64,000 bases of DNA from Nocardioidaceae bacterium. GTDB lineage: Bacteria; Actinomycetota; Actinomycetes; Propionibacteriales; Nocardioidaceae. This document shows positions 12,288 through 26,101 of this stretch, piece by piece. How positions within the stretch are numbered: position 1 is the first letter of the stretch; each line of letters starts with the position of its first letter. A program made the position numbers and the translations under genes. The stretch covers positions 1-64,000 of the forward strand of contig JAQSWV010000002.1 in the NCBI GenBank assembly GCA_029266455.1. The letters are read 5' to 3'. The notes under the pieces were generated by a model. It was given only the letters and a program-made list of their open reading frames with translations. It ran no database searches and was not told the origin of the DNA.

Positions 12288-13010
12288 TCAGGCGCTCTCG
12301 TCCGACGAAGTGAGGGCCGAGCGAATCCCCGCAGCAAGCAGCCAGCCGTCGGTCACCCCGGCGACGGCGTCGACGTCGAGGCCGTGGAGACGCCGAGCAG
12401 CCGCAGGATCCCCGGTGAACACGCCGACCGCGCGCCCGTGCCGCCGCGCCGCGGCGACGACCGCAGGCAGTGGAGCCGACTCCGACCGGCCCGCCAGGAG
12501 CGCTTCCACCGTGATCCCGAGGGAGAGCGAGAGGTCGTACGGCCCGACGAACAGACCGGTGACCCCGTCGACCGCAGCGATCTCGGCCGCCTTCCCCAGT
12601 GCCGCGGCGGACTCGATCATCACCACGCACTCGGCCGTCGCGTTGGCGTCGGAGACACTCGGCGCCACTCGCCCCCAGGCCGGCATCAGCGGTCCGTAGC
12701 TGCGTCGCCCTCGTGGCGGGTAGTACATCGCGCTCACCACCCGCCGAGCGTCATCCACGCTGTCGACCTGAGGAACGATCACGCTTCTCGCGCCCGCATC
12801 GAGCGCCCACCCGATCGCAGCGACATCGATCGACGGAGCGCGCACCACGAGAGCCGCCTGCTCGGGCGCCCACGAGCGACAGACCGCCAGCAGGTCGGAG
12901 CGACCGAATCGGCCGTGCTGCATGTCCAGGCAGACCCAGTCGAACGATGCCCCGAGCCGGAGCAGCGTGCTGACGCTCGCGTCGAGACACCAGACCCCCG
13001 AGCCGGCCAT
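12288..13010 (-). CDS. HpcH/HpaI-family aldolase
   Basis: 240 residues from the ATG at 13010, which has AGAGGCGGG directly before it and gives the usual family length; in-frame starts at 13115 and 13175 would add a non-conserved N-terminus. The class II pyruvate-aldolase fold shows in FDWVCLDMQHGRFG (7-stranded barrel start with Asp/His), VRAPSIDVAAIGWALDAGA, VVMIESAAAL (metal Glu) and GLFVGPYDLSLSLG (metal Asp). Enzymes of this family cleave or form 4-hydroxy-2-oxo acids with a divalent metal. It is divergent from the SHMT-like gene at 13301; both catalyse retro-aldol-type C-C cleavage, which suggests a shared pathway, but the substrate is unknown. Confidence 0.82.
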   Translation of the reverse strand: MAGSGVWCLDASVSTLLRLGASFDWVCLDMQHGRFGRSDLLAVCRSWAPEQAALVVRAPSIDVAAIGWALDAGARSVIVPQVDSVDDARRVVSAMYYPPRGRRSYGPLMPAWGRVAPSVSDANATAECVVMIESAAALGKAAEIAAVDGVTGLFVGPYDLSLSLGITVEALLAGRSESAPLPAVVAAARRHGRAVGVFTGDPAAARRLHGLDVDAVAGVTDGWLLAAGIRSALTSSDESA

Positions 13011-13300
13011 CCCGCCTCTGGGACCGCGGACCCCATGCCTGACTGCGGGCCACGAGTATCCCGCGCGCGAACCCTCACCAGCCGTGCTCGGCACCTGCGG
13101 TTGCGGCCCGCTCATCGTGACTCGACCGACGGCGGCGAACTGCTTGTCGACGAATGGCCGAGCGAACCGCTCCACCGCAACGGGTCGCGCGTCATCCCCA
13201 GGGGCACGATGAGAAGGCTATCCGCAAGCCACCGGGAGAGCCGTGGACTCTCGCCAAGAGGTGCTTGTCCCGATCAGTCGTCGCAGAGAACGATGGAAGC

Positions 13301-14623
13301 ATGTCCGCTCTCGCACACCAGCCCTGGCTTCCCGACCACAGCGCTCAGTACGTCCGTTCCGTCGCCTCGGCGACGGCGGACGCCGCCGGCCCCACCGTGC
13401 TTGGCGAGCTGGACCGGTTGGTCGAGGAGAACCGGCAGATCCATGACCGCGACTGCATCAATCTCAACCCCGCCACCAACGTCATGAATCCACGCGCGGA
13501 GGCGATGTTGTCGGCCGGACTCGGTTCGCGGCCGTCGCTGGGCTACCCCGGGGAGAAGTACGAGATGGGCCTGGAGGCCATCGAACAGATCGAGATCATC
13601 GCCGCCGAGCTCACGGCGGAGGTGTTCTCCGCGCGTTACGCCGAGATCCGGGTGCCCTCCGGAGCGATCGCCAATCTGTACTCGTTCATGGCCACCTGCG
13701 AGCCCGGCGACACGATCATCGCACCCCCACCCAGCATCGGCGGGCACGTCACCCACCACGCCGGCGGCTCCGCGGGGATGTACCGGCTGGACACGATCCC
13801 GGCGCCGGTCAGCGCCGACCGGTTCACCGTCGATGTGGACGCCGTTCGCGCACTCGCTCAGGAGCACCGCCCCCGCATGATCACCATCGGCGCCAGCCTG
13901 AACCTCTACCCACACCCGGTCTCCACTCTCCGCGAGATCGCCGACGAGGTAGGAGCGGTACTCCTCTTCGACGCGGCCCACCTGTGCGGACTGATCGCCG
14001 GAGGTGCCTGGCCGAACCCACTCGAGCAGGGTGCGCACCTGATGACCATGAGCACCTACAAGAGTCTCGGGGGACCTCCGGGCGGCCTGATCGTCACCAA
14101 CGAGCCGGAGATCGCCCAGCGCCTCGATGCGATCGCCCACCCCGGACTCACCGCGAACTTCGATGTCGGGAGGGCCGCCGCCCTGGCCGTGACCATGCTC
14201 GACTGGAAGGCGGTCGGCAAGGAGTACGCCGCCGCCATGGTCGAGACCGCCGCCGCACTCGCAGCGGGCTCGATGGAGCACGGCCTGCCCGTGTTCCAAG
14301 GACGCCAAGGCCCGACCCACTCCCACCAGTTCGCCATCGAGGCGAACCAGTGGGGTGGTGGCCAACGGGCGGCGAAGCGACTACGCCAGGCCAACCTGTT
14401 GGCCTGTGGCATCGGGCTGCCGGCGGAGGCCGTGCCAGGGGACGTCAACGGGCTCCGCATCGGCACGCCCGAACTCGTCCGACTGGGAATGAAGCCCGGT
14501 GACATGGACGACCTTGCGTCGCTGATGGCCGACGGCCTGGCCCCCGAGGCCGATCTCGCAGATGTCGCCACTCGCGTGTCCCGATGGCGAACCCGTTTCT
14601 CCGGCGTGCACTTCACCGCCTGA
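13301..14623 (+). CDS. SHMT-family PLP-dependent enzyme
   Basis: 440 residues from the ATG at 13301 with GGAAG three bases upstream. Fold-type-I PLP signatures: LNPATNVMNPRAEAML, VPSGAIANLYSFMA, LLFDAAHLCGLIAGG (Asp 224 contacting PLP N1, His 227) and MSTYKSLGGPPGG with the Schiff-base Lys 254. The pattern is that of serine hydroxymethyltransferase relatives, but the N-terminus and active-site wording differ from canonical GlyA, so it probably acts on another beta-hydroxy or alpha-methyl amino acid. It is followed after 321 bases by an amino acid permease. The HpcH aldolase is divergent from it. It is not likely to be the organism's main folate SHMT. Confidence 0.8.
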   Translation: MSALAHQPWLPDHSAQYVRSVASATADAAGPTVLGELDRLVEENRQIHDRDCINLNPATNVMNPRAEAMLSAGLGSRPSLGYPGEKYEMGLEAIEQIEIIAAELTAEVFSARYAEIRVPSGAIANLYSFMATCEPGDTIIAPPPSIGGHVTHHAGGSAGMYRLDTIPAPVSADRFTVDVDAVRALAQEHRPRMITIGASLNLYPHPVSTLREIADEVGAVLLFDAAHLCGLIAGGAWPNPLEQGAHLMTMSTYKSLGGPPGGLIVTNEPEIAQRLDAIAHPGLTANFDVGRAAALAVTMLDWKAVGKEYAAAMVETAAALAAGSMEHGLPVFQGRQGPTHSHQFAIEANQWGGGQRAAKRLRQANLLACGIGLPAEAVPGDVNGLRIGTPELVRLGMKPGDMDDLASLMADGLAPEADLADVATRVSRWRTRFSGVHFTA

Positions 14624-14944
14624 AGGTGGCGCGCTCGACTGGTGACCGGTCAAGCGGCCGGCGTCGCCGACCCAGGCCACACGGCCCGCCAGGGCGGACT
14701 TCGGAGTCATCACCCCCGCCGCCGACAGACGCTCTCGTCGGGTGAGGCGGTGCTCACCCACTGTTCATCCTCCGGTCGGCCGGTGCACGACTGCGTTGCC
14801 TAGCGTCGCGGCCCGGGCGGGTGACCTCCGGGTGGTGAGTTGCGTCGCCCAGGGGCGCCGCAGGAATTCGCGCCGAGAAACAATGGCGCGGCGCCGCGGT
14901 GTCGTGCTTGCGCCGCCTGCCCTACTGGTCCGAGAGTGTCCACC
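14624..14944. other. intergenic leader region before the APC permease operon
   Basis: About 320 bases between the SHMT-like gene and the permease. I see no gene I can support and no recognisable riboswitch fold. The last 60 bases before the permease contain several ATG/GTG codons in other frames. A promoter for the downstream six-to-eight-gene run probably lies here, but I cannot point to convincing hexamers. Confidence 0.35.
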
Positions 14945-16378
14945 ATGGCAAATACGGGAAGCAACGTCGCAGCGGACTCCGGGGCGAATCAGCAGCCCGA
15001 GCTCCGGCGGGTGATGGGGCCGAAGCTGCTCCTGCTCTTCATCCTCGGCGACATCCTCGGCACCGGTGTCTACGCGCTGACCGGCGACGTCGCTGCGGAG
15101 GTGGGCGGCGCGGCCTGGTTGCCGTTCCTGGTGGCTTTCCTCGTCGCCATGATCACCGCCCTGTCATACCTCGAGCTCGTGACGAAGTACCCGCAGGCGG
15201 CCGGCGCCGCCCTGTACACGCACAAGGCATTCGGCATCCACTTCCTCACCTTCCTCGTGGCTTTCACCGTGATGTCCTCCGGCATCACGTCGGCGTCGAC
15301 AGCCTCGCAGGCCTTCGCGGCGAACTTCAGCGCCGGTTTCGGTCTCGGCTTCCCGACCGGCAGCGCGGGCCTCCTGATCATCGCGCTCGCGTTCATGCTG
15401 CTGATCGCGGCGGTCAACCTCCGCGGTGTCGGCGAGAGCGTCAAGGCCAACGTCGTGCTGACCCTGGTCGAGCTGTCCGGTCTGCTAATGGTGATCATCA
15501 TCGGTGCTGCGGTCATCTTCCAGGGCGACGCGGGCAACTTCGAGCAGGTGACGGCGTTCGAGACACCACAGGACAAGAACGTCTTCATCGCGGTCACGAC
15601 GGCGACGTCGCTCGCCTTCTTCGCCATGGTCGGCTTCGAGGACTCGGTCAACATGGCGGAGGAGACGCGGGACCCCGCCCGCACCTTTCCCAAGGTGATG
15701 CTCACGGGCTTGTCCCTGGCCGGGCTCATCTACGTGCTGGTGTCCATCTCCGCCGTTGCCATCGTCCCCCTGGGCGACCTCAAGTCAGCGGACTCGCCAT
15801 TGCTCGAGGTGGTCAAGGTCGGCGCTCCGGACCTCCCGGTCGGCGACATCTTCCCGTTCATCGCGATGTTCGCCGTGGCCAACTCGGCGCTGATCAACAT
15901 GCTGATGGCCAGCCGGCTGCTGTACGGGATGGCCAAGCAGCACGTACTGCCGCCGTTCCTCGGAAAGGTGCATCCCACGCGGCGAGTCCCGTACATGTCG
16001 ATTCTGTTCACGACCGGTCTCTCCCTGGGGCTGATCGCCTATGTCAACACCCTCAGCGAGGACGGGATCGCCCTGCTGGGCGGTACCACCGCGCTGCTGC
16101 TGCTCGCCGTCTTCGCCGTCGTCAACATCGCCGTGCTGGTGTTGCGCAAGGACCGTGTGGAGAGTCACCACTTCAAGGCCCCGACGGGGATGCCGGTGCT
16201 CGGCGCGTTCACGTGCCTCTACCTCGTCACCCCCTTGGTCGACCGCGACCCGATGCAGTACCAGATCGCCGGCCTGCTCCTGGCGATCGGCGTGGTGCTC
16301 TGGGCCATCACCTGGTTCGTGAACCGGGCGATCCGCGCCGACCGTACCTTCGTCCGTGACCCGAGCGACCTGAGCTGA
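14945..16378 (+). CDS. APC-family amino acid permease
   Basis: 477 residues from the ATG at 14945; an in-frame GTG at 14936 is an alternative. Twelve hydrophobic spans are visible. The first span carries LGDILGTGVYALTGDVA, the APC substrate-binding unwound helix, and ETRDPARTFPK is the conserved loop after span 6. Such proteins are proton- or gradient-coupled amino acid importers of the inner membrane. It heads a plus-strand run with the dipeptide epimerase (18-base gap) and serine hydrolase, so it may supply or recover amino acids released from peptides. The substrate is unknown. Confidence 0.85.
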   Translation: MANTGSNVAADSGANQQPELRRVMGPKLLLLFILGDILGTGVYALTGDVAAEVGGAAWLPFLVAFLVAMITALSYLELVTKYPQAAGAALYTHKAFGIHFLTFLVAFTVMSSGITSASTASQAFAANFSAGFGLGFPTGSAGLLIIALAFMLLIAAVNLRGVGESVKANVVLTLVELSGLLMVIIIGAAVIFQGDAGNFEQVTAFETPQDKNVFIAVTTATSLAFFAMVGFEDSVNMAEETRDPARTFPKVMLTGLSLAGLIYVLVSISAVAIVPLGDLKSADSPLLEVVKVGAPDLPVGDIFPFIAMFAVANSALINMLMASRLLYGMAKQHVLPPFLGKVHPTRRVPYMSILFTTGLSLGLIAYVNTLSEDGIALLGGTTALLLLAVFAVVNIAVLVLRKDRVESHHFKAPTGMPVLGAFTCLYLVTPLVDRDPMQYQIAGLLLAIGVVLWAITWFVNRAIRADRTFVRDPSDLS

Positions 16379-16395: not shown

Positions 16396-17466
16396 GTGCC
16401 GATCGTCGAGGTGCGCTGCGGAGTGCTTCACGCGCCGCTGCGTGCGCCGTTCGTCACAGCGCTGCGCTCCACCACGGTGGTGGAGTCGCTGCTGGTCGAG
16501 ATTCTGGACGAGTCCGGGACGCACGGTATCGGTGAGGCCCCGGTGGTAGAGAAGGTCACCGGAGAGTCCCTCCATGCACTGCGCGTTTGCGTCGAGGGCC
16601 CGCTCCGGTCGGTGGTGGTCGGACGCGAACCCGACGACCTCGTGCCGCTGTTGCACGACGTAGCGCGACAGGCACCCAGCAACCCGGCGGCGCGAGCCGC
16701 CGTCGACGTCGCCCTGCACGACCTGGCTGCCCGCCGCCAGGGGGTGAGCCTGCCCCGGTTCCTCGGCGGCACGCTGCTGAAGGTGCCGACCGACGTCACG
16801 GTTTCGGCAGACACCGCCGACCGGCTGGTAGCGGCCGCGCGCGACCGGGTCGATGACGGTTTCGATGTCGTGAAGCTGAAGGTGGGAACCGATCCGGTGA
16901 CCGACGTCGAACGAGTCCTTGCTGTTCGCGCCGCGGTCGGTGAGGCCGTCACCGTGCGGCTGGACGCGAACCAGGGCTGGACACCCCAGGAGGCAGTACG
17001 CGTGCTGGGCCTGCTGGAAGACGCCGACGCCGGCGTCGAGCTCGTGGAGCAGCCGGTAGCTGCCGCCGACATCGACGGCCTGGCCTGGGTGCGTCGACGA
17101 GCACAGACCCCCGTGATGGCCGACGAGTCGGTCTTCGGTCTGCGGGAGCTGGTCACCGTGATCTCGAAAGGCGCCGCTGACTCGGTGAACGTCAAGCTCG
17201 CCAAGGCTGGTGGGCTGCTGCCCGCGGTGGCACTGCTCGAGCTGGCGCGCGCGCACGGTCTCGGCGCCATGGTCGGGTCGATGATGGAGGGACCGGTCGG
17301 CGTGGGTGCGGCTGCGAGCCTGGCTGCCGTGCACGGGACGACGGTGGTGCCCGACCTTGACGCGGCCTGGTGGCTGGACGGATCGCCCCTGCAGGGTGGG
17401 CTCCGGTATGAGGGCGCCATGGTGCACCTTCCGGACACCCCGGGACTCGGTATCGAGCGACGGTGA
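16396..17466 (+). CDS. dipeptide epimerase (L-Ala-D/L-Glu epimerase-like, enolase superfamily)
   Basis: 356 residues from a GTG 18 bases after the permease. All muconate-lactonizing-enzyme-subgroup residues are present at the expected numbers: VKLKVG with K160 and K162, metal ligands D190 (RLDANQGW), E218 (VEQP) and D243 (ADES), and second base K267/K270 (VKLAKAGG). The order and numbering nearly match the Bacillus L-Ala-D/L-Glu epimerase YkfB. That enzyme converts L-Ala-D-Glu from peptidoglycan turnover into L-Ala-L-Glu for normal peptidase breakdown. The nearby cytoplasmic NlpC/P60 peptidase, the YkfC equivalent, supports this role. Specificity for another dipeptide is possible. Confidence 0.85.
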   Translation: MPIVEVRCGVLHAPLRAPFVTALRSTTVVESLLVEILDESGTHGIGEAPVVEKVTGESLHALRVCVEGPLRSVVVGREPDDLVPLLHDVARQAPSNPAARAAVDVALHDLAARRQGVSLPRFLGGTLLKVPTDVTVSADTADRLVAAARDRVDDGFDVVKLKVGTDPVTDVERVLAVRAAVGEAVTVRLDANQGWTPQEAVRVLGLLEDADAGVELVEQPVAAADIDGLAWVRRRAQTPVMADESVFGLRELVTVISKGAADSVNVKLAKAGGLLPAVALLELARAHGLGAMVGSMMEGPVGVGAAASLAAVHGTTVVPDLDAAWWLDGSPLQGGLRYEGAMVHLPDTPGLGIERR

Positions 17467-18296
17467 GTGCTTCGACCGAGCTCGACGACCTGGCCGCCCG
17501 CACCGGCACCCGTCTGTCGGTATGGGTAGGACCAACGGCTGGGCCGCCCTGGCTGACGCGGCGCCCGAACATCGTGCACCCGGCCGCCAGCACCTTCAAG
17601 CTGCCCCTGGTCATCGCCGCCCACCAACTGGCAGCGGTCGGGCGGCTCGACCTCGCCGACCTCGTGCAGGTGCAGCCCACCTTCGCGTCGGCCGCCGACG
17701 CCACACCGTACGAGCTGACGGCGGACTACGACAACGACGACCTGGTGTGGCGCCACCTTGGCGAGGCGGTGCCGATCGGCTGGCTCATGGAGCGGGCCGT
17801 GGTGCGGTCGAGCAACCTCGCGACCAACCTGCTGCTGGAGCGTGTGGGCACCGCGGCAGTGAACGACGTCTACAGCACGGTGGGAGCGGAACGGTCGAGA
17901 CTGCGGCGCGGCATCCAGGACGCCCGCGCCAGCGCCCTGGGTATCTCCAACACCGGCACGGCAGCCGATCTGGCCGGCGTCGTGCGCGGCCTGCTGAGCG
18001 GCCGGCTGCTCGATCCGGCGGCCTCGGACGCGGTCGAGCGTCTGCTGGCCGCCAGCGAGTGGAACGACGCGATCCCCGCAGGGCTGCCGGTAGGGACTTA
18101 CGTCGCGCACAAGTCGGGCTGGACCGACGAGTGCTGTCACGATGTCGGGGTGGTACGGCCGGCTGGTGACGAGCCGTTCGTGCTGAGCCTCTTCACGTCC
18201 ACCAGCCTTCCCGAGGCGTTGGCGCATACGGTGGTCGCTGAGGCGGCGGGCATCTGCTGGCGTCAGCGGCCGCGACGACGCACGCTGGACGAATGA
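17463..18296 (+). CDS. class-A-beta-lactamase-like serine hydrolase, cytoplasmic
   Basis: 277 residues; the GTG start overlaps the epimerase stop (GTGA). Penicillin-recognising motifs are all present: S43-T-F-K46, S116-S-N118 (in place of SDN) and K217-S-G219. There is no signal peptide, so it is expected in the cytoplasm, unlike secreted beta-lactamases. The Glu166-type deacylation residue of class A enzymes is not obvious. In an operon with a dipeptide epimerase and near an NlpC/P60 enzyme, a peptidase or amidase acting on cell-wall-derived peptides is more likely than antibiotic resistance. It overlaps the next gene by four bases. Confidence 0.8.
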   Translation: MSASTELDDLAARTGTRLSVWVGPTAGPPWLTRRPNIVHPAASTFKLPLVIAAHQLAAVGRLDLADLVQVQPTFASAADATPYELTADYDNDDLVWRHLGEAVPIGWLMERAVVRSSNLATNLLLERVGTAAVNDVYSTVGAERSRLRRGIQDARASALGISNTGTAADLAGVVRGLLSGRLLDPAASDAVERLLAASEWNDAIPAGLPVGTYVAHKSGWTDECCHDVGVVRPAGDEPFVLSLFTSTSLPEALAHTVVAEAAGICWRQRPRRRTLDE

Positions 18297-19270
18297 GTAA
18301 CGCCTACACCCACGCAGACTCCGAGTTCGCCGACCGCATCCTCGACGAACCCGACGCACGCTGGCCCGTTGCGCCCGGTCGATATCGGCTGGTCGCCTCG
18401 CTGGCGTGTCCATGGGCCAGCAGGGCTGTGCTGGTGCGGCGTCTGCTGGGCCTGGAGGACGTGATATCGCTCGGCATCGTCGACCCCGTCCACGACGAGA
18501 AGGATTGGCGCTTCACGCTCGACCCCGGTGGCGTCGACCCAGTGCTGGGCATCCACCACCTTGCGGAGGCCTACGCCACCCGGCGGTCAGAGTGGCACAA
18601 CGGAACCAGCGTGCCTGCCATCGTGGACGTGCCGAGCGGCAAGCTGGTCACGAACGACTTCGCGACGATCACCCTGGACTTCTCGACCGAGTGGACGTCA
18701 CATCACCGCCCGGGCGCGCCGGACCTGTACCCGCAGGCGTGGCGCGACGAGATCGACGATGTGATGGCCCGCGTGTACACCGAGTTCAACGATGCGGTGT
18801 ACGGGGCGGGGTTCGCCAAGTCCCAGGCGTCCTACGACGACGCCCACCGGCGCATCTTCGACTGCCTGGACTGGTTGTCCGAGCGACTCTCGAACCGGCG
18901 GTATCTGGTCGGGGACCACCTCACCGAGGCCGACGTGCGGCTGTTCACCACGCTGGTGCGCTTCGACGCCGTCTACCACGGTCACTTCAAGTGCAACCGC
19001 AACAAGATCACCGAGGACCCCGTTCTCGACGCCTACCTGCTCGACCTGATGCAGACCCGCGGGGTCGGCGACACGGTGAACATGACCCACATCAAGGTGC
19101 ACTACCACCGCACGCACCGGAACCTGAACCGCTACGGGGTCGTCCCGGCCGGTCCCCGTCAGGACTGGACCCGCCGTCACCACCGCGAACAGCTCGGGGG
19201 GACCCCGTTCGGCGACGCCACCCCGCCTACCCGGCCCAGCGAGATCCCCGACTACCGCTCGGAGCCCTGA
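18293..19270 (+). CDS. glutathionyl-hydroquinone reductase-like / GST omega-xi family
   Basis: 325 residues, ATGA overlap with the previous gene. The thioredoxin-fold part holds the active-site motif LACPWASR (Cys 39), characteristic of xi-class glutathionyl-hydroquinone reductases, and the C-terminal helical domain has LVGDHLTEADVRLFTTLVRFD, followed by the YHGHFKCNRNKI segment. In glutathione-using bacteria these reduce glutathionyl-quinones; most actinobacteria make mycothiol, so the cosubstrate may be mycothiol. The link to the peptide-handling genes upstream is unclear beyond co-transcription. Confidence 0.85.
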   Translation: MSNAYTHADSEFADRILDEPDARWPVAPGRYRLVASLACPWASRAVLVRRLLGLEDVISLGIVDPVHDEKDWRFTLDPGGVDPVLGIHHLAEAYATRRSEWHNGTSVPAIVDVPSGKLVTNDFATITLDFSTEWTSHHRPGAPDLYPQAWRDEIDDVMARVYTEFNDAVYGAGFAKSQASYDDAHRRIFDCLDWLSERLSNRRYLVGDHLTEADVRLFTTLVRFDAVYHGHFKCNRNKITEDPVLDAYLLDLMQTRGVGDTVNMTHIKVHYHRTHRNLNRYGVVPAGPRQDWTRRHHREQLGGTPFGDATPPTRPSEIPDYRSEP

Positions 19271-19387
19271 CGGCACCAACGGTCGGTGCTCTGCGCACCT
19301 CGGCCCACCGCGCCATCGGTCTCGCCTCGGCCTCGGCCGACGATGGCGGCCTGCCGGGGCCGCTGGTGGCGCGCATAGGCTCCCGGC

Positions 19388-19855
19388 ATGGCCAGGACGA
19401 TCGCGACCACCACAGCCGTCGACCGGGAGCAGATGCTTGCGTTCGTGCGGCCCCGCCACCACTTCGTGCTGATGACGTACCGCCGGGACGGGACCGTGCA
19501 GAGCTCGCCGGTCACCGGCGGTGTGGACCCCGAGGGCCGGCTGGTGGTGTCGAGCTACCCCGATCGGGCCAAGACGGCGAACATCCGACGTTCCGGGCGT
19601 GCTGGTGTGCTCGTGCTGTCCGACGACTTCGACGGGCCCTGGCTCCAGGTGGACGGCGAAGCCGAGGTGCTGGACATGCCCGACGCACTGGACGGTCTCG
19701 TCGACTACTTCCGCTCGATCTCCGGTGAGCACCCTGACTGGGACGACTACCGGCTGGCGATGCAGCGCCAGGACAAGGTCCTGCTGCGTGTCGCACCCCT
19801 CCGCTGGGGCCCGGTGGCCACCGGCGGCTTCCCGGCCCGGCTGGCCGGCGCGTGA
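19388..19855 (+). CDS. PPOX-class F420/FMN-dependent oxidoreductase
   Basis: 155 residues from the ATG at 19388. The split-beta-barrel pattern is clear: MLAFVRPRHHFVLMTYRRDG, then QSSPVTGGVDPEGRLVVSSY, DRAKTANIRRSGRAGVLVLSDD and WLQVDGEAEVLD. Actinobacterial members (MSMEG/Rv families) bind F420 or FMN and reduce diverse substrates. The final RWGPVATGGFP is typical of the F420-binding subgroup. It overlaps the NlpC/P60 gene by four bases (GTGA), suggesting a common transcript. Confidence 0.85.
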   Translation: MARTIATTTAVDREQMLAFVRPRHHFVLMTYRRDGTVQSSPVTGGVDPEGRLVVSSYPDRAKTANIRRSGRAGVLVLSDDFDGPWLQVDGEAEVLDMPDALDGLVDYFRSISGEHPDWDDYRLAMQRQDKVLLRVAPLRWGPVATGGFPARLAGA

Positions 19856-20793
19856 CCGCCTCGCACGCGGTCGCCGTCCCGGTGACCACGGTGTGGACGA
19901 CCGCCGACAGTCCGCGGGCGATCGACCGCGCGCTGGTGGCCGACGCCCCCGACCTGCCCGGCTGGTGCGTGACGCATGGCGGCGAGGACCGCGTCGGCCT
20001 ACACGGACGGGTCGTGACGCAGGCGCTGCTGGGCGAGCCGGTGCAGATGCTCGACGAGGGCGATCGCTGGAGCCGGGTGGTCCTGCCGTGGCAACCGTCG
20101 TCGCTGGACGCGAGGGGCTACCCCGGCTGGGTCCCGACCTCGCACCTGCTGCCGGCGGCAGGAGTCGAGGGCGTGGCCGGCGACGGGGTGGCGGTCGTAC
20201 GCCCGCTGACCGCCACGCTGCGCACACCGGGCGGGGGCGTGGAGGTGTCGTGCGGCACCGTGCTGCCTGCCGTCCGCCGCGACGACTCCGAGGTCATGGT
20301 CGGCCTGCCGGACGGGGGCGTGGGGTGGCTCGATGTGGCCGACGTCGTCCGACGGGCCGGTACGTTCACCGCTGCCGTCGATGTGACGGCCGCGCTGTCC
20401 GCGGCCCGGCAGTTCCTCGGCCTGGCGTACCTGTGGGGCGGCACCAGCGGCTGGGGGGTGGACTGCTCCGGGCTGGTGCATCTCGCGTACCGAGTGCACG
20501 GGGTAGCGGTTCCTCGCGACGCCGCGGACCAGTGCGCCGTGCTCGAGGCGGTCGGAGACGACGAGGTCTCGGTGGGAGACCTGCTGTTCTTCGGGCGTCC
20601 GGACGAACCACCGCACCATGTCGGCCTCGTCACCTCGCCCGGCCCGGGGGACAAGCTGAGGATGCTGCACGCCCCGGAGAGCGGCGGCCTCGTCGAGGAC
20701 GCCCCGCTCGCCCCGCACCGACGCGAGATGCTCGCCGCCGCGCGGGCCGCGTCGTGGCCGACGCCGGCGGATGGCCCTGTGCTGGGCCGATGA
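19852..20793 (+). CDS. NlpC/P60 (C40) peptidase without signal peptide, YkfC-like
   Basis: 313 residues, GTG start overlapping the upstream stop. Residues about 45-170 look like two SH3b-like domains (VQMLDEGDRWSRVVLPWQ; GWVPTSHLL; VGLPDGGVGWLDVADV), followed by an NlpC/P60 domain with C205 (GVDCSGLVH), H256 (HHVGLV) and H273 (LHAPESG). This layout matches Bacillus YkfC, a cytoplasmic gamma-D-glutamyl-L-diamino acid endopeptidase that releases L-Ala-D-Glu from muropeptides, the substrate of YkfB. No signal peptide or membrane anchor is visible, which supports recycling inside the cell. The neighbouring epimerase 2.4 kb upstream strengthens the assignment. Confidence 0.85.
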   Translation: MTASHAVAVPVTTVWTTADSPRAIDRALVADAPDLPGWCVTHGGEDRVGLHGRVVTQALLGEPVQMLDEGDRWSRVVLPWQPSSLDARGYPGWVPTSHLLPAAGVEGVAGDGVAVVRPLTATLRTPGGGVEVSCGTVLPAVRRDDSEVMVGLPDGGVGWLDVADVVRRAGTFTAAVDVTAALSAARQFLGLAYLWGGTSGWGVDCSGLVHLAYRVHGVAVPRDAADQCAVLEAVGDDEVSVGDLLFFGRPDEPPHHVGLVTSPGPGDKLRMLHAPESGGLVEDAPLAPHRREMLAAARAASWPTPADGPVLGR

Positions 20794-20817: not shown

Positions 20818-21906
20818 GTGACCAAGCAGGAGACGCCGTCCGGCGCCGTCCCCTCCGCCCGGGTCGCCCGCCGGTGGCGTCGCCACCTCGCAGACGAGCG
20901 CGAGGAAGCCGCCGTCTACCGGAACCTGGCGTCCCGGCGGACCGGCGAGGAGCAGGAGATCCTGCTGGGTCTGGCTGTGGCAGAGGAACGGCACATCGCA
21001 CACTGGGAGCGCCTGCTCGGCGACCGTGCGGGAAAGGCCAGGCGTGGCGATGTGCGCACGCGCCTGCTGGCCTGGGCGGCGCGGCGGTTCGGCTCCGTGT
21101 TCGTGCTGGCACTGGCGCAGCGGGCGGAGGGACGTTCGCCCTACGACAAGGACAGCGACGCCACCGCCGCGATGGCTGCCGACGAGCGGATCCACGCCGA
21201 GGTGGTCAGGGGCCTCGCTGCGCGCGGACGCGCTCGGATGTCCGGGAGCTTTCGCGCCGCGGTGTTCGGTGCCAACGACGGCCTGGTGAGCAACCTGGCA
21301 CTCGTGCTCGGCGTGAGCGGCGGCGGAGCGGCGCCGGACACCGTGCTCCTCACCGGGCTTGCCGGACTGCTGGCGGGCGCCCTGTCCATGGGCGCGGGCG
21401 AGTACGTCTCCGTGCGATCCCAGCGTGAGCTGCTGGCTGCGTCGTCCCCGAGCGACAGTGCGTCGACCGCCGTCCCACATCTCGACGTCGACGCCAACGA
21501 GCTCGCTCTCCTTTATCGCGCCCGGGGTCTGAGCGCTGACCAGGCCGGCGAGCGCGCCGACGCGTCGCTGCGCCAGCGGGACCTCGAGCAGCCGCCGGCG
21601 GTGGACGCCGGCGCGGACCACGACGTCGTCGGGACGGGTCTGGGAGCGGCGGTGTCGAGTTTCGCCTTCTTCGCCTCCGGCGCTGCCGTGCCCGTGCTCC
21701 CGTTCGTGCTGGGCCTCGATGGCATCACCGCCCTGCTGACCGCCATGGTGCTGGTCAGCCTCGCCCTGCTGCTGACGGGCGCGGTCGTCGGCATCCTGTC
21801 GGGCGGCCCACCGCTGCGCCGGGCGCTGCGCCAGCTCGCGATCGGGATGGGGGCGGCCGTCACGACGTACCTCCTGGGGATGGCGTTCGGCTCCACGGTC
21901 GGCTGA
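20818..21906 (+). CDS. ferritin-like/VIT1 fusion (MbfA-type iron or manganese exporter)
   Basis: 362 residues from a GTG at 20818. The N-terminal about 140 residues form a ferritin-like (erythrin) four-helix bundle with metal-ligand pairs EEAAVYRNLA, AEERHIAHWE and ADERIHAEVV. The C-terminal part is a VIT1/CCC1 transporter: FRAAVFGANDGLVSNLALVLGV in the first span, LSMGAGEYVSVRSQREL, and three further spans after 215. Such fusions (MbfA in alpha-proteobacteria) export iron, with the ferritin domain sensing or delivering the metal. The gene follows the NlpC/P60 gene by 24 bases but is probably functionally separate. Confidence 0.88.
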   Translation: MTKQETPSGAVPSARVARRWRRHLADEREEAAVYRNLASRRTGEEQEILLGLAVAEERHIAHWERLLGDRAGKARRGDVRTRLLAWAARRFGSVFVLALAQRAEGRSPYDKDSDATAAMAADERIHAEVVRGLAARGRARMSGSFRAAVFGANDGLVSNLALVLGVSGGGAAPDTVLLTGLAGLLAGALSMGAGEYVSVRSQRELLAASSPSDSASTAVPHLDVDANELALLYRARGLSADQAGERADASLRQRDLEQPPAVDAGADHDVVGTGLGAAVSSFAFFASGAAVPVLPFVLGLDGITALLTAMVLVSLALLLTGAVVGILSGGPPLRRALRQLAIGMGAAVTTYLLGMAFGSTVG

Positions 21907-22000: not shown

Positions 22001-23089
22001 TCAGCCCCGCACGGCGACACGCACCCGCGCCACGCCGCTCTGGTCGATCAGGCCGAGCCCGTGCGCATGCTCGGCGGCCTCCACGCTGTCGCGGATCAGG
22101 AGCATGGGCACACCGAGGCCGGCCATTTCCGCGGCGAGCTCACCCACGCGCTTGGTGCGCAGCACGGATGTCGGTGGAACGTCGCGGATGTACACGGCCC
22201 GCACCTGCCCCGGGCACGACCGCACCACCGCCGCATAGGCCTCGGGATCGTGCTGGCCGCTGTCCCCCACGAGCACCCAGCCCGCACAGGGATGCTGGGC
22301 GATCAGGGTCGTGATGGTCCTGGCCTTGAAGGCCACGCTGTCCTCACGGAACAGCCAGCGGGCGCTCGGGCCCCAGTCCGTCAGCATGATGGGACCAGCC
22401 GGAAAGCCGTTGCGTGCCAGGAACAGCAGCAGCATCTCGTGCATGTTCCAGGCACCCGTCGACACGTAGAACGCGGGACCCTCCACCGTGGGGCTCGTGC
22501 CGCGGCGGTCAACGGCAAGCAGCGCCTGGTAGAGCTCCGCTCCCCCGGCTATCGGCACCCGATCCTCGTCGGCCACCAGCAGGCTCGTGCGCACGGTCTC
22601 CCAGACCCGGGTCAGCCCGGTGTGGATCACCGTGTCGTCGAGATCGCTCACCAGGCCCAGCGGCGCGTCCGGGTCCACCACGAGCAGCCGGCCGGGCACT
22701 GCCTCGGACGAGGACCGCCAGGTGACCTCGTGCCAGCCGGTGGGGACGTCCGGGAGGTCGACGTCGACCGTGAGGTAGCCCTCGTCGTCGGATACTGCCG
22801 AGACCGTGCGGCCGGCCACCTCGATGTCGATCGACTCGCGCTTGGCCTCGACCCGGGCGTACCGGGTGAGGCTGGTGATCAGCGTGGCGGCTGCGCCGTT
22901 GCGCCGGCGCGGCTGACGGCGGCGAACCACCGCCCGGCCGCGCAGGTGAGCGTGGGTGGGAGTCCCGTGGCCGACGTAGGGGTCGACCGTCACGATCCAG
23001 CCCGGTCGACCTCGCAGTCGGGCGGCGAGTCCGGCCTCGACGGCATGCTCCACGCGCCGGAACCTGCTCGCCCACCGCTCCCGCGCCAC
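22001..23089 (-). CDS. App1-family phosphatidate phosphatase-like protein (DUF2183)
   Basis: 362 residues from a GTG at 23089. The catalytic HAD-type motif is D149-L-D151-D-T153 within GLVSDLDDTVIHTG, and later FYVSTGAWNMHEMLLLFL, PIMLTDWG and VLVGDSGQHDPEAYAAVV complete the DUF2183 signature. Yeast App1 dephosphorylates phosphatidate; bacterial members are widespread with unproven substrates. The N-terminal 140 residues form a beta-rich domain (GYLTVDVDLP, WHEVTW). It converges with the VIT1 gene and is transcribed toward it, alone. Confidence 0.85.
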   Translation of the reverse strand: MARERWASRFRRVEHAVEAGLAARLRGRPGWIVTVDPYVGHGTPTHAHLRGRAVVRRRQPRRRNGAAATLITSLTRYARVEAKRESIDIEVAGRTVSAVSDDEGYLTVDVDLPDVPTGWHEVTWRSSSEAVPGRLLVVDPDAPLGLVSDLDDTVIHTGLTRVWETVRTSLLVADEDRVPIAGGAELYQALLAVDRRGTSPTVEGPAFYVSTGAWNMHEMLLLFLARNGFPAGPIMLTDWGPSARWLFREDSVAFKARTITTLIAQHPCAGWVLVGDSGQHDPEAYAAVVRSCPGQVRAVYIRDVPPTSVLRTKRVGELAAEMAGLGVPMLLIRDSVEAAEHAHGLGLIDQSGVARVRVAVRG

Positions 23090-23150: not shown

Positions 23151-24137
23151 TCAGAGGCCGCCGGACTTCGCTGCCTCGGGATCCTTCCGGGACTTGGCCA
23201 GGCTGGCCACGGTGGTGACGGCCAGCGTCACGATGATGACCGCCAGCGACAGCCACGTCGGGATCTCGGGAACCGGGACGTGCTCACCTCCGTTGATGAA
23301 CGGAAGCTCGTTCTCGTGCAGGGCGTGCAGCACCAGCTTGACGCCGATGAAGGCGAGGATGAACGCCAGCCCGTACGACAGGTAGACCAACCGGTCGAGG
23401 AGGCCGCCCAGGAGGAAGTAGAGCTGGCGGAGGCCCATCAGCGCGAAGATGTTGGCGGTCAGCACGAGGTACGGCTCCTGGGTGAGGCCGTAGATCGCGG
23501 GGATCGAGTCCAGCGCGAACAGCAGGTCGGTGGATCCCAGCGCAAGGATCACTATGAGCATCGGCGTGATGAGCAGCTTGCCGCCGTCCCGGACCAGTGG
23601 CTTGATGCCGTGCCACTGGTCGGTGGACGGGAGGTGGTTCTGGGTGAACCGGATCAGCCAGTTCTCGGTGTACTCGTCCTCCTCGTCGTGACGGGTGAGG
23701 GTCCACGCCGTGTAGATGAGGAAGGCGCCGAAGACGTAGAAGATCCACGAGAAGTTGTTGATCGCGGCCGCACCGAGCGCGATGAACACACCGCGGAAGA
23801 TGAGCGCCAGGATGATCCCCACCAGCAGAGCTTCCTGCTGGTACTTCCGCGGCACCCCGAACCGACTCATGATGATGATGAAGATGAACAGGTTGTCGAC
23901 CGACAGCGAGTACTCGGTCAGCCAGCCGGCGTAGAACTCGCCCGCGTACCTGCCCCCGTAGTCCAGCAGGATCCACAGCCCGAACAGAATCGCCAGGGAC
24001 GAGTAGATCGAGATGTAGATCGAGCATTCCTTCATGCTGGGCTCGTGCGGACGGCGCGCGACGAGGACCAGGTCGAACAGCAGGATGGCCATGGTCACCC
24101 CGATGGTGATCCACCAGGCGAGCGGAGAGACTTCCAC
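23151..24137 (-). CDS. TerC family integral membrane protein
   Basis: 328 residues from a GTG at 24137 with GGAAGG seven bases upstream. Nine or so membrane spans are visible, with the TerC hallmark acidic residues in LDYGGRYAGEFYAGWLTEYSLSVDNLF (SVDN) and LGSTDLLFALDSIPAI (ALDSIPA). TerC proteins are linked to manganese and tellurite homeostasis and to metalation of exoenzymes. It lies between an App1-like gene and, divergently, SppA. A longer frame up to 24845 is rejected because it becomes Arg/Pro-rich before the GTG. Confidence 0.9.
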   Translation of the reverse strand: MEVSPLAWWITIGVTMAILLFDLVLVARRPHEPSMKECSIYISIYSSLAILFGLWILLDYGGRYAGEFYAGWLTEYSLSVDNLFIFIIIMSRFGVPRKYQQEALLVGIILALIFRGVFIALGAAAINNFSWIFYVFGAFLIYTAWTLTRHDEEDEYTENWLIRFTQNHLPSTDQWHGIKPLVRDGGKLLITPMLIVILALGSTDLLFALDSIPAIYGLTQEPYLVLTANIFALMGLRQLYFLLGGLLDRLVYLSYGLAFILAFIGVKLVLHALHENELPFINGGEHVPVPEIPTWLSLAVIIVTLAVTTVASLAKSRKDPEAAKSGGL

Positions 24138-24415
24138 GCAGGTTCCTTCCTCACGGGCACCTAACGGGCACGACGCACTGCGTGGGACGGCGCTTCTCGC
24201 CGACACAACGCCGACACGAGCCGATCGACGGCGTCGGGTCGCATGACCGTGTGACCACCAGCAGCGCGGGGAGTGCTCCCCGCCGCCGGACATCGTCGCA
24301 AACCTCTGCCTGCGGCGCGAGTCCGGGTGGTGGGCGCGCCGTGCGCGCGCCGCCGCTGCGAGCCCCGCTCGCGGCCGGAGGCGCCACCAGAGCCGGCCCG
24401 GGTTAGCGTGCCGGG
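24138..24415. other. divergent intergenic region between terC and sppA
   Basis: About 278 bases hold the ribosome site of the terC-like gene (24144-24151) at one end and the sppA start at the other. No convincing promoter hexamers or known riboswitch pattern could be recognised. In particular the yybP-ykoY manganese riboswitch, frequent before terC in other bacteria, is not evident. CGACAC/CCGACACG repeats occur near 24200. Confidence 0.4.
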
Positions 24416-26101
24416 ATGAGCCCCTCTCCGCTGCTGCTCGAGCTCGACCTGGCCCGCGGCCTGCTCGAGTCGCCACCCCAGGACCCGCTGGCCGCGATGC
24501 GCGCTCGCCAGGTCCCGACGCTGTCCACGGTGCTGGCCCGACTGCGCGAGGCCGCCGACGACGCTGCGGTGGTCGGGCTGGTGGCTCACGTCGGGCCGGA
24601 TGTGCTGACCCCGGCACAGGTCGAGGAGCTCGGCGAGGGGGTCGAGCTCTTCGCGGCGAGCGGCAAGGCGACGGCGTGCTGGACGGAGTCCTTCGGCGAG
24701 CTCGGCGCAGGCACGCTGCCGTACCACCTGGCCGTGCACTTCGACAGTGTCTGGATGCAGCCGTCCGGAACGCTCGGGCTGGTGGGCGTCGCCACTCGCG
24801 GGGTGTTCCTTCGTGCTGCCCTGGACCGGCTGGGCCTGGAGCCACAGATCGGGCAACGGCACGAGTACAAGAGCGCAGCCGACCAGCTGCTGCGCGACCA
24901 CATGAGCGACGCGCAGCGGGAGGCCACGCAGCGTCTCGCCGACTCGGTCACCGAGCAGGTGGTGGCGACCGTGGCCCGCCGCCGCAGCCTGTCACATGAG
25001 CAGGTGCGCGCCGCCGTCGACGCCGCTCCGCTGGCCGCGGAGGTCGCTCTGGAGCGCGGGCTCGTCGACCGGCTCGGCTACCGCGACGAGCTGTACGCAG
25101 AGCTGCGGGGCCGGCTCGAGGGCGAGGGGGGGACCCCGCTCGAGCTCCGGTACGTCCACCGGTGGGCGCCCGCCGGCAGGCGCAGGGCAGGGCGGAGGCT
25201 GCGCCGGCTGGCGACCAGGCGCCAGCAGCCGGTCGTGGCCGTGGTGGCCGTCGAGGGCGGCATCGCACTGGGCCGGAGCAACGCGTCCCCACTGGGCGGC
25301 AGGCGAGCGGGGTCGGACACGGTGTGCGCCGCGTTGCGCTCCGCAGGCGCACGCGACGACGTCGCGGCCGTCGTGCTCCGGGTGGTGAGCCCGGGCGGCT
25401 CGTACGTCGCCTCCGACGCGATCCACCGTGAGGTGCACCGACTGCGGCAGGACGGCACGCCGGTGGTGGCCTCGATGGGGTCGGTGGCCGCATCGGGCGG
25501 TTACTTCGTGGCGATGGGCGCGGACGAGATCGTGGCTCTGCCCAGCACGGTCACCGGCTCGATCGGTGTCCTCGGCGGGAAGGTCGTCGTCGGCGATGCG
25601 CTGCGGCGGCTCGGCATCGGGACCGAGCCGGTGGGAGCGGGCAGCCAGGCCACCATGTTCGACAGCACCGTGCCGTTCCGCGAGCAGGAATGGGCCCGGG
25701 TCGAGCAGTGGCTGGACGCGGTCTACGCCGACTTCACCGCCAAGGCGGCGACCGGACGGCAGATGCCGTACGAGCGGCTCGAACCGCTCGCCCGAGGCCG
25801 GGTGTGGACCGGCGCCGACGCGCAGGTCCGGGGGCTGGTCGACACTCTCGGTGGGCTCGACCGGGCGCTGACGCGCGCGGCCGATCATGCCGGGTCGAGC
25901 CGCCAAGAGGTGCGCGTCGTCCGGGTGCCGCACCCCAGCCCGCTGGACCGGCTCCGGCCGGCCACCTCGAGCGAGTCGGCAGCGGCAAGCCTCTGGGCTC
26001 CTGTCAGCAGCAGCGAGGGTGCCGCCGAGGCGGTCCTGCGGCAGCTCGGTCTGACCGGCGGCGGCGTGCTGAGCCTGCCGGTCCCGTGGCGACTGGGCTG
26101 A
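24416..26101 (+). CDS. sppA: signal peptide peptidase SppA, tandem S49 type
   Basis: 561 residues with two S49 domains, like the 67-kDa SppA group. The general-base Lys 152 lies in the first half (RHEYKSAAD) and the nucleophile Ser 360 in the second (GSVAASGGYFVAMGAD), with VSPGGSYVAS (324-333) forming the oxyanion region. SppA degrades leftover signal peptides in membranes. The N-terminal membrane anchor found in E. coli SppA is absent; MSPSPLLLELDLARG is not hydrophobic enough. It probably works in the cytoplasm or at the membrane face. It converges with the carbonic anhydrase gene, leaving 4 bases. Confidence 0.85.
   Translation: MSPSPLLLELDLARGLLESPPQDPLAAMRARQVPTLSTVLARLREAADDAAVVGLVAHVGPDVLTPAQVEELGEGVELFAASGKATACWTESFGELGAGTLPYHLAVHFDSVWMQPSGTLGLVGVATRGVFLRAALDRLGLEPQIGQRHEYKSAADQLLRDHMSDAQREATQRLADSVTEQVVATVARRRSLSHEQVRAAVDAAPLAAEVALERGLVDRLGYRDELYAELRGRLEGEGGTPLELRYVHRWAPAGRRRAGRRLRRLATRRQQPVVAVVAVEGGIALGRSNASPLGGRRAGSDTVCAALRSAGARDDVAAVVLRVVSPGGSYVASDAIHREVHRLRQDGTPVVASMGSVAASGGYFVAMGADEIVALPSTVTGSIGVLGGKVVVGDALRRLGIGTEPVGAGSQATMFDSTVPFREQEWARVEQWLDAVYADFTAKAATGRQMPYERLEPLARGRVWTGADAQVRGLVDTLGGLDRALTRAADHAGSSRQEVRVVRVPHPSPLDRLRPATSSESAAASLWAPVSSSEGAAEAVLRQLGLTGGGVLSLPVPWRLG

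Follow-up and report, generated by a model that had tools for sequence, protein, structure and literature searches.

A stretch of 64,000 nucleotides from a Nocardioidaceae bacterium (assembly GCA_029266455.1, contig JAQSWV010000002.1, positions 1 to 64,000), hereafter the window, was analyzed for a gene cluster predicted to recycle muropeptides. Six genes on the forward strand encode, in order, an APC-family permease, a YkfB-type epimerase, a PBP-A-like serine hydrolase, a glutathione S-transferase (GST), a PPOX-class oxidoreductase and a YkfC-type NlpC/P60 endopeptidase (Table 1). Their Pfam and NCBIfam assignments match the family names given at first reading. The successive gaps from permease to endopeptidase are 17, -4, -4, 117 and -4 bp, so short, with one exception, that the six genes are probably transcribed together. 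The evidence from sequence and gene context strongly supports a Ykf-like catabolism of muropeptides, centered on the epimerase, the hydrolase and the NlpC/P60 protein, which are referred to as the trio below.

Table 1. Genes of the putative recycling cluster and its conserved neighbor, with positions in the window
Predicted product	Position	Strand	Domain evidence and remarks
APC-family amino acid permease	14840..16378	+	AA_permease_2, E 3e-44; ATG at 14945 is the likelier start
L-Ala-D/L-Glu epimerase, YkfB type	16396..17466	+	GTG start; MR_MLE
Cytoplasmic PBP-A-like SxxK serine hydrolase, putative D-Ala carboxypeptidase	17463..18296	+	PF13354 Beta-lactamase2, E 1.1e-37
Xi-class glutathione/mycothiol S-transferase, hydroquinone reductase type	18293..19270	+	GST family; 4pts, E 2.5e-120
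F420-dependent PPOX-class oxidoreductase, Rv1155 family	19388..19855	+	PNPOx; TIGR03618 above cut-off, E 3.9e-33
YkfC-type gamma-D-Glu-diamino acid endopeptidase	19852..20793	+	SH3_16, SH3_YKFC_2nd and NLPC_P60, all above cut-off
TerC-family protein, synteny anchor outside the pathway	23151..24845	-	Open reading frame over-extended at its 5' end

The closest solved relative of the epimerase is YkfB of Bacillus subtilis (1jpm), matched over its full length with an E-value of 1.5e-74. The original prediction held that all catalytic residues of this enzyme class were present, and the alignment bears this out: K160, K162, D190, E218, D243 and K267 align with YkfB, as do R24 and D320-x-D322. All of these residues, together with T135, are invariant in 84 epimerase homologues. 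D190, E218 and D243 preserve the Asp-Glu-Asp metal ligands, and R24 and D320/D322 correspond to R24 and D321-x-D323 of YkfB, which lie on the substrate side in the 1tkk complex. Catalysis by YkfB employs two lysines, K162 and K268, on either side of the substrate (PMC5808125), and this pair is kept as K162 and K267. The curated equivalog cut-offs of NCBIfam were missed (NF041118, 197 of 500 bits; NF011708, 125 of 343 bits), although both models look narrow; the specificity assignment rests therefore on residues and context. These strongly support a YkfB-type epimerase that is predicted to act on L-Ala-D/L-Glu.

The NlpC/P60 protein had been described as lacking a signal peptide and carrying two SH3b domains like YkfC, and both features were confirmed. 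An SH3b1 domain and a YKFC-type SH3b2 domain precede the NlpC/P60 domain, with SH3_16 and SH3_YKFC_2nd above the gathering score, and the whole length matches YkfC of Bacillus cereus (BcYkfC, 3h41) with an E-value of 3.3e-39. BcYkfC is also the best Foldseek match of the AlphaFold model (template modelling score 0.85), which is of moderate quality, with a predicted local distance difference test score (pLDDT) of 75.7, and was used for the fold only. The YkfC subfamily is defined by Tyr118 of SH3b1 and Asp256, a pair that goes with the requirement that the N-terminal L-Ala be free (PMC2954226). This defining pair is kept as Y90 and D223. The Cys-His-His triad consists of C205, H256 and H273, and Tyr226, Trp228, Asp237 and Ser239 of BcYkfC have their counterparts in Y193, W195, D204 and S206. 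Among 77 homologues, Y90, Y193, W195, D204, C205, S206, R222, D223 and H256 are invariant, and H273 is kept in 76. The assignment to the YkfC subfamily, with predicted cleavage between gamma-D-Glu and the diamino acid, is thus strongly supported. The survey of this subfamily in 2010 covered Bacteroidetes, Cyanobacteria, Firmicutes and alpha-proteobacteria; Actinobacteria were not among them (PMC2954226).

Between these two genes lies the serine hydrolase, with the motifs S43xxK46, S116-S-N118 and K217-S-G219. No hydrophobic stretch or membrane anchor was found at its N-terminus (maximum 12-residue mean 0.50), in agreement with the cytoplasmic enzyme that had been foreseen at this position. PF13354 is its only domain, apart from a sub-threshold match to PF00144. 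The AlphaFold model (pLDDT 96.6) displays the class A fold with very high confidence, and Foldseek matched it to class A lactamases and to PBP-A, the latter among its best structural hits. A profile built from 24 relatives gave its strongest full-length match to a solved structure with PBP-A of Thermosynechococcus elongatus (2j7v; E 8.5e-32). Leu158 of PBP-A, which occupies the site of the lactamase Glu166, aligns with Ile151 of the hydrolase, and Ile is found here in all 102 homologues. S43, K46, S116, N118, D153, K217, G219 and W220 are likewise invariant; D153 and W220, together with the near-invariant R149 and H226, are the marks that separate this family. Since the general base is missing, a class A beta-lactamase was rejected by sequence, and the NCBIfam cut-off for these enzymes was missed as well (NF033103, 82 of 200 bits). 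The earlier label of a beta-lactam-type peptidase therefore fits the fold but not the catalytic machinery of a lactamase. PBP-A strips the terminal D-Ala from pentapeptides and prefers amidated stems, and no LD activity was detected (PMC11189452). By analogy, the most likely role of the hydrolase is to clip D-Ala from the C-terminus of stem peptides that have been imported, and its likeness to PBP-A suggests a preference for DD over LD bonds.

Secreted PF13354 proteins were also observed in another actinobacterial class (L161:1477-2391, L136-L160), where they form a separate clade (support 100/99). They possess a hydrophobic residue at position 166, and most of them have KxGW; they are candidate extracellular PBP-A-like DD-peptidases beyond the cyanobacteria.

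Linkage of the trio was assessed in 80 loci from named genomes, found by a search with the hydrolase alone and taken with flanks of up to 10 kb. The original prediction depended on co-occurrence in relatives and survived this check: the epimerase lies within 10 kb of the hydrolase in 67 loci, the NlpC gene in 61 and both in 57. A spacing of -4 bp is the commonest, with 33 such junctions between hydrolase and epimerase and 26 between epimerase and NlpC. Clusters of this kind occur in Kribbellaceae, Nocardioidaceae, Micromonosporaceae, Actinopolymorphaceae, Glycomycetaceae and Pseudonocardiales, and genera with the cluster include Kribbella, Micromonospora, Nocardioides and Terrabacter. Intrasporangiaceae have the hydrolase-epimerase pair only, and in four Actinopolymorpha-type genomes hydrolase and NlpC remain while the epimerase is absent. 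Co-occurrence is thus repeated on the tree, with several losses, and the trio is a conserved, closely linked module across several actinobacterial families. The window hydrolase clusters with those of L047, L054 and L055 (support 100/99). The usual neighbor is a TerC orthologue, which in most of the named loci runs convergent to the cluster; a TerC gene is near the window cluster too, which suggests that the cluster descended in place.

The other three genes of the probable transcript fared differently. The permease had been noted ahead of the cluster, and it is indeed upstream in the window; its orthologue (63-65% identity) directly precedes the hydrolase, epimerase and NlpC genes in two Nocardioidaceae metagenome-assembled genomes, L054 and L055, but in most of the remaining relatives it does not lie beside the trio and is no part of the module there. 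The GST (further matches 3m1g, E 1.3e-109, and YqjG, E 1.4e-59) and the PPOX protein had been left unexplained. No homologue of either was found in the 80 loci, so they were rejected as pathway members and are taken as insertions or passengers in the operon.

Loci of the Actinopolymorphaceae showed additional genes. A class III-IV lanthipeptide synthetase-like gene (RamC_N, kinase and LanC domains) adjoins the hydrolase gene (L034:4844-7771, L035-L037, L039-L042); in loci that retain the epimerase, it separates the hydrolase and epimerase genes. Endonuclease V and a PPOX gene of a different subfamily are found farther out in most of the L034-type loci, which we take as coincidence.

Sister clusters connect the module with peptide import. 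In Dactylosporangium (L089, L093, L131), genes for an oligopeptide ABC importer lie beside the trio, and in Propionibacteriaceae (L051, L053) they lie beside the hydrolase-epimerase pair. When 395 genomes of the class were searched in reverse, starting from the epimerase, 17 carriers emerged. A PF13354 hydrolase of the window family is adjacent in seven of them, including the window genome (six in the core clade, L195 divergent). In three others, a PF00144 class-C-type hydrolase directly follows the epimerase, together with an Opp-type importer. One of these, L194, also has MurQ and AnmK. Its compact cluster (L194:2829-12191; likewise seen in L188 and L190), from another actinobacterial family, further comprises Opp-type binding protein and permeases, epimerase, PF00144 hydrolase and importer ATPases. 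MurQ and AnmK are established enzymes of cell-wall recycling, and the epimerase and a lactamase-fold hydrolase therefore belong together to recycling in at least this lineage. Four carriers have an NlpC protein with a signal peptide and no hydrolase. A Sec-type signal peptide was found on NlpC in L165, L189, L191, L192 and L193, and the cluster is without hydrolase in all five. The pattern is consistent with a hydrolase that works in the cytoplasm on entire imported peptides and not on the dipeptide left at the end. A Fisher test relating the signal peptide to the presence of the hydrolase mixed differently chosen samples and was not used. Beside the secreted-NlpC variant, which consists of YkfC and epimerase genes (L165:6918-10225, L189:7339-10608, L191, L192, L193), a DUF819 membrane protein was confirmed by Pfam in L165 and L189 and is visible as a DUF819-like start in L191; this protein is a candidate importer of L-Ala-D-Glu.

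The Ykf-like pathway originally proposed is upheld by specificity residues shared with YkfB and YkfC, by the linkage of the trio, and by the importers or MurQ/AnmK of sister clusters. We consider it about two-thirds probable that the locus is an actinobacterial pathway of this kind for cell-wall stem peptides, in which the hydrolase trims D-Ala. The reactions below are deduced from domains, residues, fold and conserved linkage, and the substrate of the hydrolase is the most conjectural among them. Extracellular amidases would release L-Ala-gamma-D-Glu-diaminopimelate-D-Ala or its longer form with a second D-Ala, and the free stem peptides would be imported, by the adjacent Opp/Dpp system in sister clusters and by one encoded elsewhere in the window genome. 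The APC permease may transport peptides or freed amino acids. Once in the cytoplasm, the stem peptides would lose C-terminal D-Ala to the hydrolase via an acyl-serine intermediate (Ser43, Lys46, Ser116, Lys217), and the NlpC/P60 enzyme would next cleave the gamma-D-Glu-diaminopimelate bond; cell-wall precursors would be safe from it because a free N-terminal L-Ala is required. The epimerase would then convert L-Ala-D-Glu to L-Ala-L-Glu, to be split by ordinary dipeptidases. We infer the early position of the hydrolase from its absence where cleavage is extracellular and its retention where the epimerase is lost.

The hydrolase had been suggested to perform the step of YkfA. Such a role is plausible but supported only in part: the hydrolase contains no Peptidase_S66 domain and is unrelated to that family, and for its closest characterized relative, PBP-A, no LD activity was detected. 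No S66 LD-carboxypeptidase is encoded inside the cluster; two S66 genes (LdcA/MccF family) are on other contigs of the window genome (C119:30677-31039, C101:412-771). S66 genes coexist in 12 of 17 epimerase-bearing genomes that were examined for them and are absent in five, and a strict YkfA substitute was rejected for this coexistence. S66 enzymes could take the LD step and leave the DD step to the hydrolase, as the precedent of PBP-A would suggest.

Several observations speak against this reading of the locus. With S66 genes in most cluster-bearing relatives and in the window genome, D-Ala removal may not need a serine hydrolase, and trimming would not be obligatory as YkfC of Bacillus already cleaves tetra- and pentapeptides (PMC2954226). 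No peptide importer was found in the examined part of the window. Neither partner is near the hydrolase in nine of the 80 loci, and L195 combines a Tat-type NlpC with a hydrolase next door.

In the same pathway, the hydrolase might instead be the final dipeptidase, acting on L-Ala-L-Glu or on diaminopimelate-D-Ala, the other NlpC product. The cluster has no dedicated L-Ala-L-Glu dipeptidase gene, and the order hydrolase-epimerase-NlpC permits any step. However, such a dipeptidase would be equally needed in the secreted-NlpC clusters, where the hydrolase is absent; the four Actinopolymorpha-type genomes retain the hydrolase without the epimerase, and the nearest characterized relative, PBP-A, is a carboxypeptidase. 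We regard this role as unlikely. Somewhat less probable still is a deamidase of amidated stem peptides. Amidation is a common modification of actinobacterial walls and the amidase GlsA has the SxxK fold too, but to our knowledge there is no amidase among homologues of the hydrolase family. PBP-A senses the amidation state of D-isoglutamine, so the fold can read that position (PMC11189452). It is very improbable that the hydrolase is a beta-lactamase or that it senses beta-lactams in the cytoplasm in connection with cell-wall fragments, comparable to Bacillus, where muropeptide levels tune the induction of BlaP. The class A fold would suit such a role, and mutants of Bacillus ykfA and ykfB show reduced beta-lactamase induction (PMC3305447); the Ile at the Glu166 site, the absent export signal and the invariant Trp after KxG argue against it, and a beta-lactamase confined to the cytoplasm would have little use. 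A chance neighborhood of functionally unrelated genes, in keeping with a trio that is split by GST and PPOX and ordered unlike its relatives, is contradicted by its repeated linkage in at least five families and can practically be dismissed.

The proposed stem-peptide pathway with D-Ala trimming resembles several known systems. The ykfABCD operon of B. subtilis, located by the dpp importer, also has a YkfB-type epimerase adjacent to a YkfC-type SH3b-SH3b-NlpC/P60 protein, both cytoplasmic, and peptide importers adjoin the actinobacterial sister clusters in the same manner; in contrast, the window cluster, from a different phylum, is without YkfA and YkfD and has the PBP-A-like hydrolase. B. 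cereus ykfBC shares the epimerase-endopeptidase pair and the same residues, but BcYkfC has a signal peptide and is exported (PMC2954226), an arrangement also seen in the five actinobacterial clusters without hydrolase. In Escherichia coli ycjG/mpaA, an epimerase is next to a gamma-D-Glu-diaminopimelate peptidase as well, though MpaA, a metallocarboxypeptidase, has no relationship to NlpC/P60 (PMC2954226) and there is no serine hydrolase. PBP-A, described as cyanobacteria-only, has the class A fold, the SxxK/SxN/KxG motifs and a hydrophobic residue at the Glu166 site in common with the hydrolase family. However, it is membrane-anchored and extracellular, whereas the window family has no signal or anchor, is located in a recycling operon, and has two invariant features, the Trp that follows KxG and an RxIxD loop. 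Class A beta-lactamases share the fold and acylation residues, and differ in the deacylation base and in export. No description of the actinobacterial trio was found in the open-licence literature, which is weak evidence of novelty. The pathway is known in kind, and the uncharacterized, conserved PBP-A-like hydrolase is its added part.

The cluster is flanked by genes of other types. Upstream of the permease (12288-14623), an HpcH/HpaI-type aldolase gene on the reverse strand is divergent from a gene on the forward strand for a pyridoxal-phosphate enzyme like serine hydroxymethyltransferase. Downstream, around the conserved TerC neighbor, genes for a VIT1-family protein (20818-21906), an APP1-type phosphatidate phosphatase (22001-23089) and an S49 (SppA-type) peptidase (24416-26101) were found.

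A broader proposal, to which we give slightly less than even odds, is that actinomycetes have independently placed cytoplasmic penicillin-binding-protein-like hydrolases, of PF13354 and in another lineage of PF00144, by the YkfB epimerase. These would be the first intracellular D-Ala carboxypeptidases of PBP-A type, trimming imported stems in a standard muropeptide step and open to intracellular beta-lactams. The recycling of peptidoglycan by actinobacteria has been mapped poorly, and the cluster offers a concrete, widely conserved gene set for it. A cytoplasmic class-A-fold family that its domain would mark as 'beta-lactamase', despite the missing base, would thereby gain a defined space of functions.

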